From assembly GCF_001579845.1 (NCBI RefSeq), contig NZ_CP007440.1:2050001-2114000 (forward strand): a DNA stretch of 64,000 bases. Direction: 5' to 3'. The notes beneath the pieces were generated by a model. That model worked only from the letters and a program-made list of their open reading frames with translations. It had not been told where the DNA came from and made no database searches. This stretch comes from Rhodoplanes sp. Z2-YC6860. GTDB lineage: Bacteria > Pseudomonadota > Alphaproteobacteria > Rhizobiales > Xanthobacteraceae. This document shows, piece after piece, positions 43,388 through 44,574 of this stretch. Position numbers and translations under genes: made by a program. How positions within the stretch are numbered: position 1 is the stretch's first letter; each line of letters starts with the position of its first letter.

Positions 43388-43915
43388 TTAATGCCCGTCC
43401 TGCTCGAAGGCGGCCTTGAGCAGCCCGAGCTGTCGCACCACCGGATTGCTGCCCTGGGGTTTATCGGGGGCGAGCGGCGGCGCGTAGATGTTGGCATCGA
43501 GGCGCCGGACCTGGTCGTTCAGCTTCTTGGAGCGGTCGATCAGGTCGCGGAGGCGCTCGGGCAAAACCTTGATGGTCTCCGGATCGCCTGGCTCGCCGGC
43601 CGCGAGCTTGACCTTGGTCTTTTCCTTGTTGGCCTGGGCGAGCGACATCTCACCTTCCTTGACGGCCCGGTGCAGCAGCAGCCACGAGGCAAGCTGCATC
43701 AGCCGCGTGGTCAGGCGCATGCTTTCGGTGGCGTAGGCGAGCGCCGCGTTGCGCTCGAGCTTTTTGGATTCCTGCCGGCCGGGCCCGTCGAGATAGGCCG
43801 CGGTCTCTTCGACCAGCCCCATGCCGTCGCGGAACAGCGCTGCAAACGCCTGAGAGCCGGCGAGTCTTTCGCCGAATGCGATCGGCAACGCTTCGTCCGC
43901 GGAACGCTCTTTCAT
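43388..43915 (-). CDS. rcdA: RcdA: regulator of CtrA degradation (DUF1465)
   Basis: This 175-residue protein matches the RcdA/DUF1465 family of small helical adaptors that, in Caulobacter, help deliver the cell-cycle regulator CtrA to ClpXP. Family signatures are FGERLAGSQAFAALFRDGMGLVEETAAYLDGPGRQESKKL and ATESMRLTTRLMQLASWLLLHRAVKEGEMS. The ATG at 43915 fits the family start; longer frames would run through a terminator and an ncRNA. Its upstream region holds a candidate small RNA and two CtrA boxes, so a feedback relation to CtrA is likely. Confidence 0.9.
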   Translation of the reverse strand: MKERSADEALPIAFGERLAGSQAFAALFRDGMGLVEETAAYLDGPGRQESKKLERNAALAYATESMRLTTRLMQLASWLLLHRAVKEGEMSLAQANKEKTKVKLAAGEPGDPETIKVLPERLRDLIDRSKKLNDQVRRLDANIYAPPLAPDKPQGSNPVVRQLGLLKAAFEQDGH

Positions 43916-44060
43916 GATGCACGCCTTACCCAGACCCAACGCTTGATATGAACGGGTCGAGTTAAGACTGTCCAGCCGTTTAGCTGCAATGTTTACAAAA
44001 TGGTAACCGTGATGGCGGGCTCGAAACGTTCCGCGCCGCGATATTTGCGCCGAAACGGCA

Positions 44061-44191
44061 CAAAAAAAGAGCCGCCGTTGCCGGCGGCTCAAAGGTGGTA
44101 ACAGGGAGGCGTCAAACAGAGTGGACAGGAGCCACTCGCGTCCATGAAGATGGACGGGTGTGAGTAATGAACGAGAAAGCTTAATTTTAAG
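44061..44191 (-). ncRNA. Candidate CtrA-controlled small RNA with anti-Shine-Dalgarno loops
   Basis: On the minus strand an RNA of about 130 bases is predicted between a CtrA-box promoter and a strong terminator. It has three hairpins: CGTCCAT-CTTC-ATGGACG (44156-44139), GAGTGG-CTCCTGT-CCACTC (44137-44119), and the terminator GAGCCGCCG-GCAA-CGGCGGCTC followed by seven T (44090-44062). The second loop exposes CUCCU and the linker between hairpins 2 and 3 carries GCCUCCC, both complementary to ribosome binding sites. This matches the design of trans-acting Rhizobiales sRNAs such as EcpR1. The 5' end is a guess from promoter spacing. It could instead be the 3' UTR of the DUF1192 gene or a processed form of it. 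Confidence 0.72.
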
Positions 44192-44195
44192 TTAA
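44181..44195 (-). promoter_or_regulatory. CtrA box 1 (TTAA-N7-TTAA)
   Basis: TTAATTTTAAGTTAA has the exact TTAA-N7-TTAA spacing recognised by CtrA. It overlaps the predicted transcription start of the small RNA, where bound CtrA would repress. Confidence 0.7.
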
Positions 44196-44197
44196 TC

Positions 44198-44238
44198 TTT
44201 ATGAAACCGACGCGCTGTTATGGTTAACGGGCGGTTAA
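44198..44238 (-). promoter_or_regulatory. CtrA box 2 and predicted promoter of the small RNA
   Basis: TTAACGGGCGGTTAAC (44224-44239) is a full CtrA box, TTAA-N7-TTAAC. On the minus strand its second half TTAACC (44227-44222) can act as -35; after 18 bases CATAAA (44203-44198) is a plausible -10, putting the start near 44191. This is the layout of CtrA-activated promoters. Confidence 0.6.
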
Positions 44239-44284
44239 CGGCGCGAACTTCCGAACCCAAGCGGCGCCAGTCCGCTGACGCGCG

Positions 44285-44479
44285 TCACTTCTTGAAAAAC
44301 AGATCGGCTGCAGCCTTTGAGGCCTGCTTGCCTTTGATGTCGGCTTCGAGCCGTGCGATCTCGTCCTTGAGCAGCGCGATCCGTTCGTTGAGTTCACCAA
44401 CCGAGAGCAGGGTCAGATCCTGACCGATCTCGTGGGAGATTTTTTTCTTCGGCCGGTCGTCATCGTCGGTCGCAGGCAT
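44285..44479 (-). CDS. DUF1192 small coiled-coil protein
   Basis: This 64-residue protein begins at ATG 44479 behind GGGAGG. An acidic head (MPATDDDDRPKKK) is followed by HEIGQDLTLLSVGELNERIALLKDEIARLEADI, typical of the DUF1192 family, and a basic, aromatic end. Function is unknown. In Rhizobiales it is usually found near rcdA and a quinone oxidoreductase, as here. The gene ends 195 bases before the only terminator on this strand, leaving room for the small RNA. Confidence 0.85.
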   Translation of the reverse strand: MPATDDDDRPKKKISHEIGQDLTLLSVGELNERIALLKDEIARLEADIKGKQASKAAADLFFKK

Positions 44480-44574
44480 CTCGGGCCTCCCGCATTCGAT
44501 TGAATCAATAGCTTCCGCCCGGCTGGCTGTCACACGCCCGGTTGTCACGTTGCGGCCGGAAGACTACAGCGTTG

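Follow-up and report, generated by a model that had tools for sequence, protein, structure and literature searches.

We report that the gap between rcdA and a DUF1192 gene in the window (the whole 64,000-nt stretch of DNA that was analysed) holds a small RNA of a known family, BjrC1505 (Rfam RF02356), behind a conserved candidate binding site for CtrA, the master cell-cycle regulator of Alphaproteobacteria. Our reading, to which we give a probability of roughly 0.76, is that CtrA activates transcription of this RNA from about 44157 to 44062 and that its linker acts in trans at Shine-Dalgarno regions. To our knowledge few sRNAs have been placed in the CtrA regulon, and the promoter of the BjrC1505-family sRNA appears to be unreported so far. 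A known sRNA is newly recognised here as a probable and very widely conserved member of that regulon, and the conserved box points to a likely regulator for an orphan sRNA family. The features of the locus are as follows:

44285-44479, minus strand: DUF1192 gene (PF06698, E 2e-24), the next gene upstream.
44224-44238, minus strand: distal TTAA-N7-TTAA box, exact; not conserved.
44181-44195, minus strand: proximal TTAA-N7-TTAA box (putative CtrA site), exact; it would span about -24 to -38 relative to the predicted start.
44163-44170, minus strand: -10-like element TCATTACT, starting 10 nt after the proximal box.
44062-44157, minus strand: predicted BjrC1505-family sRNA transcript, roughly 96 nt long; its 5' end is an estimate (+/- 3 nt).
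44139-44156, minus strand: hairpin 1, from the fold; 99.5% of cells paired and two-sided changes at 3 of 6 pairs (65 sequences, alignment A2).
44119-44137, minus strand: hairpin 2, from the fold, with CUCCU in its loop here; 100% of cells paired in A2 and 92.0% in alignment A1.
44100-44113, minus strand: linker GACGCCUCCCUGUU, the most conserved stretch.
44062-44090, minus strand: intrinsic terminator, a stem at 44090-44069 followed by T7; helix 3 is conserved, with compensatory changes.
43388-43915, minus strand: rcdA (DUF1465; PF07323, E 6e-57), the next gene downstream, outside the sRNA.

CtrA acts in its phosphorylated form. It would bind the proximal box, which on our placement spans the -35 region of a promoter lacking a sigma-70 consensus, and, with the box centre at about -31, would switch on minus-strand transcription from about 44157; transcription would end at the intrinsic terminator at 44062, releasing a terminated RNA. 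Such an sRNA would be a non-coding member of the CtrA regulon, whose linker would most likely pair in trans with purine-rich Shine-Dalgarno regions and in this way lower the translation of chosen mRNAs.

The initial annotation had placed an sRNA gene between rcdA and DUF1192, and both neighbours are confirmed by their Pfam matches, on the minus strand: the frame matching DUF1465/RcdA runs over 43388-43951 (with the ATG at 43915 taken as the start) and the frame matching DUF1192 over 44285-44548 (ATG at 44479). An ORF of 234 aa opening on TTG (44092-43388) overlaps the terminator and was set aside as an over-extension of rcdA. The other features first described are likewise present: two exact TTAA-N7-TTAA boxes (the only ones in the 64-kb window, for an expected number of 0.02 in shuffles), three hairpins, the second of them with CUCCU in its loop, a linker that contains GCCUCCC, and a terminator of a 9-bp stem followed by seven T.

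RF02356 is the only Rfam family matched in the whole window. The match covers 44202-44062 on the minus strand with 118 bits, above the curated cut-off of 50, and extends over positions 1-140 of the 140 in the model; the 8.19-Mb genome contains one copy. The sRNA at this locus is a member of the BjrC1505 family and as such already known: the full-length match and the conserved structure support the sRNA gene that was first read here. BjrC1505 is said to come from Madhugiri 2012, and we know of no record of it other than as an expressed sRNA.

RF02356 matched 170 of the 199 genomes of the order (144 above cut-off), 95 of the 121 genomes of the large family f22 (65 above cut-off) and none of 14 control genomes. 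A second model, R1, was restricted to the transcript, so that its first column comes after the CtrA box. It matched all 33 genomes of the genus g137 and, among 290 genomes sampled from the whole class, 56 at E 1e-5, of which 51 lie outside the order; R1 E-values are rough, and the class matches inspected were the stronger ones. One of the 33 is the Sinorhizobium-like genome G239, in which the RF02356 search gave no match. A blastn search of the sRNA against plasmids returned no match. Loci were inspected in four samples: for the order, 130 loci from 128 of the 170 genomes with a match; for f22, the 30 loci with the highest scores among the 95 genomes with a match; for g137, 31 loci from the 33 genomes (L270-L301 except L290); and for the class, 30 loci of the 56 matches, 26 of which lie outside the order (L407 and L418 are without an anchor, and that of L414 looks spurious and is counted as a miss).

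Genomes of g137 are Sinorhizobium-like: those closest to S. meliloti reach 92-94% against a 6-kb stretch of its pSymB, and since none matches that stretch better over its length, S. meliloti itself seems to be absent from the 33. The RNA known in S. meliloti as SmelC671/Sm84 is very probably the window RNA, an identification based on locus layout, length and family spread and not on sequence. SmelC671/sm84 has been detected on northerns; SmelC671 is listed as 100 nt (Schlueter 2010), and sm84 is tabulated at about 110 and about 80 nt, in the layout SMc03988> sm84> SMc03989> (Valverde 2008). We take the figure of about 80 nt as the northern one. The order DUF1192 > sRNA > rcdA is found in all 31 Sinorhizobium-like loci, where the sRNA measures 97-108 nt by a scripted measure; in the three g137 genomes that come closest to S. 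meliloti, the distance from hairpin 1 to the end of the T-run is 100 nt, as listed for SmelC671. SmelC671/Sm84 further shares with the window RNA a gene> sRNA> gene layout on one strand, a terminator, relatives in Bradyrhizobiaceae (Reinkensmeier 2011) and extensive microsynteny. Unlike our reading of the window sRNA, the accessible literature gives SmelC671/Sm84 neither a function nor a link to CtrA, and a search made largely outside the subscription journals found nothing tying BjrC1505, SmelC671, Sm84 or ReC71 to CtrA.

Membership of the EcpR1 family, which had been suggested as a possibility, did not hold up: the Rfam search gives RF02356/BjrC1505 instead. EcpR1 (SmelC291) is likewise a Rhizobiales sRNA tied to the cell cycle, but it is described as lying near divK-pleD and rpmG, with UCCGCCGCAUCU in its SL1 loop and under stringent-response control (Robledo 2015), whereas the window sRNA has rcdA and DUF1192 as neighbours and that loop motif occurs on neither strand of the window.

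The case for CtrA rests on the proximal box, which was scanned for in 30 positions upstream of the linker (a hit being at least 7 of the 8 half-site letters). It was found in 122 of 129 order loci (54 perfect), in all of the 30 best-scoring f22 loci (27 perfect), in 31/31 g137 loci (23 perfect), in 21 of 24 loci outside the order (9 perfect) and in 75 of 76 loci fetched through RcdA protein similarity (57 perfect), a set in which the linker was found in 78 of 80; a shorter upstream scan of the named set gave 70/74. Control windows moved by -450 to +350 nt contained only 0-8 hits per set (at most 6.7%), and shuffles of the box windows reached 7/8 in 1.7-7.0%. The order and f22 sets are partly circular, as the Rfam model used to find them contains the box, whereas the RcdA-protein, g137 and outside-order sets are free of this circularity (R1 being a transcript-only model). 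The promoter first proposed at a CtrA box, binding itself being a prediction, is supported by conservation far beyond chance in five sets. In the comparison of the gap across genomes, which had been called for, the proximal box keeps a fixed place and the distal one does not: the bin at 121-130 nt before the linker has 5 hits of at least 7/8 among 130 loci, the hit in the window included.

In 118 loci a simple motif could be placed, and in 97 of them 24-26 nt separate the end of the box from the TCC of hairpin 1. Counted column by column, 123 loci yield a TTATTA-like stretch at +10 to +15 after the box, and a -10 element of this type is visible in most of those named rcdA loci that were viewed. 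Because the spacing from box to hairpin 1 is fixed and the TTATTA-like letters come 10 nt after the box, we place the start of transcription near 44157, which would give a transcript of about 96 nt with the box over its -35 region. The start predicted earlier (44191) is by the same spacing about 34 nt too far upstream. The earlier arrangement, with one box at -35 and the other over the start, also has to be revised: the proximal box would cover the -35 region and the distal box is unconserved. Against our start stands that the RF02356 model begins at 44202, upstream of the box, perhaps because the transcript known to its authors was longer; given that its 5' end overlies the conserved CtrA box, the public model (positions 1 to about 22, window 44181-44202) probably starts too far upstream.

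CtrA represses at some promoters too, and the box could in principle block RNA polymerase, the RNA appearing only once CtrA is cleared. We consider this unlikely: a conserved box with its centre near -31 of the inferred start, together with the absence of any sigma-70-like promoter with at least 9 matches in 43900-44300, fits activation better.

It might also be argued that the box is the promoter of rcdA, with the hairpins as an attenuator in the rcdA leader and the short RNA as a by-product of termination. The layout speaks for this, as rcdA follows on the same strand in 121/130 order, 27/30 f22 and 31/31 g137 loci (outside the order this holds for 13 of 24 loci, and DUF1192 lies upstream in 19 of the 24), and conserved CtrA sites have been predicted upstream of rcdA (Brilli 2010; Schlueter 2013). 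Yet sRNA and box part company with rcdA in several lineages. Nine order loci are without it: L188 and L193 lie at contig ends, L189 and L196 are second copies, and L178, L182, L185, L186 and L187 are single-copy loci. The box reaches 7-8 of 8 in these last five and in L196, and only 4 of 8 in L189. PF07323 was not found in G119, G015, G136, G180, G110 and G046 (completeness of the assemblies 97-100%, contamination 4-9% in those of f46), and the same holds for G468 from outside the order; sequence, structure and box (7-8 of 8) are kept in all six of these genomes that were inspected, that is, all except G046. At L178, L185, L182, L186 and L302 (f16 and f46) the L31 gene, located beyond rcdA in the window, follows the linker at a distance of about 150-500 nt and on the opposite strand, as though rcdA had been lost by excision and the sRNA kept. 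In f77 (L401, L402, L403, L420) the sRNA follows DUF1192 and the box remains with it, whereas rcdA is 42-46 kb away in three of the four genomes; in the remaining one it is on a different contig.

Because it is retained where rcdA was not found or is distant, the proximal box, a predicted CtrA site, is a property of the sRNA and independent of rcdA. A second box closer to rcdA shows no clear conservation among the 121 loci: 24 of 121 reach 7/8 (in a stretch of median 174 nt), and for comparison 14 of 124 do so within the 120 nt that precede the main box. Upstream of the distant rcdA no 7/8 box was found in G591 and four were found in G007, which looks AT-rich, so that little weight can be given to them. 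In S. meliloti, ChIP-seq found CtrA bound in the rcdA promoter region, and CtrA depletion gave no significant change in rcdA by microarray, qPCR and lacZ (Pini 2015, PMC4433202); CtrA is also said not to regulate rcdA in Hyphomonas. A box owned by the sRNA would account for CtrA upstream of rcdA without an effect on rcdA mRNA, and if SmelC671 is the window RNA, the bound site in S. meliloti being the SmelC671 promoter would explain this published puzzle. CtrA-regulon predictions upstream of rcdA may thus name the wrong gene, and we regard an rcdA promoter as an improbable account of the box.

The CtrA feedback loop through rcdA that had been suggested is likewise not supported, as sRNA and box persist where rcdA was not found. 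Nor is rcdA supported as a target, with the linker complement AGGGAG present in only 5 of 121 rcdA leaders, first codons included.

Three observations on divergent loci may be added. The second copy L189 (G088), away from rcdA, has no CtrA box and a changed linker. The second copy L196 (G022), also away from rcdA, has kept both, in an assembly that is 6% contaminated, and may be foreign. The four f77 loci all share the box TTAATTGTAATTTAA, the spacer of which is unlike the usual CCAT form.

Equally improbable, in our view, is an sRNA that is constitutive or stress-driven, with TTAA-N7-TTAA as an AT-rich promoter element or the site of another regulator. Promoters are AT-rich, and a sigma-70 promoter has been assigned to sm84 (Valverde 2008); the table of a 2020 review lists SmelC671 without a promoter. 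Against this, both half-sites are kept while the spacer between them mostly drifts (column counts), shuffled windows seldom reach 7/8 at the rates given above, and TTAA-N7-TTAA has been published as a CtrA motif.

The RNA structure is conserved as well. Fold z-scores are -4.67 for 142 nt and -5.48 for the proposed 96-nt transcript. Alignment A1, which is blind to structure, consists of the window and 64 of 68 selected loci (L164, L173, L179 and L208 left out; divergent rows kept); 96.1% of its cells pair and 10 of 18 pairs show two-sided changes. Alignment A2, from which R1 was built, combines the window with 46 of the A1 loci and 18 of the 30 f22 loci, without ten divergent rows (L187, L188, L190, L192, L194, L195, L200, L204, L207, L209) and eight others (L003, L009, L133, L141, L152, L169, L172, L174); here 99.6% of cells are paired and 8 of 19 pairs are two-sided. 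None of 500 shuffles was as good in either alignment, so the stems, whose pairing in relatives had been proposed as a check, are retained. RNAalifold alone on the first alignment recovered hairpin 1 and the terminator only; hairpin 2 was defined by us from the single-sequence fold. An 18-codon ATG frame can be read by eye through the hairpins of the window, but a small protein in place of an sRNA can practically be dismissed, as gaps of 1 and 2 nt occur in hairpin 2 and the ATG is lost in many aligned relatives, in both cases with pairing kept.

Within the transcript, the linker is the probable pairing region. Its GCCTCC is invariant in 65 sequences, and in the 130 order loci GACGCCUCCCUGU / GACGCCTCCCTGT is exact in 115 and CTCCCTGT in 124; in the fold of the window itself the linker is partly closed in a weak 5-bp stem. 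Of the ribosome-site-pairing loops initially described, the CUCCU loop does exist in the window, but it is poorly conserved (67/130 order loci, 0/30 in f22). In the g137 loci hairpin 2 and half of the linker have been rebuilt (CAGAC...GTCTG) while box, CUCCCUGUU and terminator are retained, and the targets of the sRNA may have shifted in this genus.

Motif screens did not single out a specific target. In its own genome 21 sites fit AGGGAGGCG-N(1,12)-ATG and 2 fit the reversed pattern, but a bias of this kind would favour whatever pattern resembles a Shine-Dalgarno site. Over 10 genomes AACAGGGAG-N(1,14)-ATG gave 93 sites against 14 for the reversed pattern, and a permuted decoy gave 94 against 14, so that the AACAGGGAG sites are no more frequent than those of the decoy. 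From 90 fetched loci (two places fetched twice) 75 yielded a protein; clustering showed no widely shared target among these 75, and three clusters that cross genera (dipeptide-type binding proteins, an MFS-type permease and TRAP-type binding proteins, kinds assigned by eye). Judged by eye from the N-termini, about 15 of 64 proteins in the target set and about 7 of 36 in the decoy set resemble transporter binding proteins; gene kinds do not clearly differ between the two.

A parallel is offered by CcnA of Caulobacter, also a non-coding RNA assigned to CtrA control, whose CCCC loop is reported to work at ribosome sites (PMC8959179). The likeness is one of description, and CcnA sits at the replication origin, unlike the window sRNA; no clear S. 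meliloti homologue of CcnA is reported in the accessible part of that source. Taken further, a single CtrA-activated sRNA in many alphaproteobacterial families might form a conserved post-transcriptional arm of the CtrA regulon, with the CtrA sites assigned to rcdA in Rhizobiales as its promoter and a part similar to that of CcnA, played through Shine-Dalgarno pairing; we hold this wider picture tentatively, at slightly less than even odds.

Finally, tandem sRNA matches about 200 nt apart were observed with R1 in family f123: at 79506-79831 of contig C6 in G745 and at 19-335 of contig C10 in G622.
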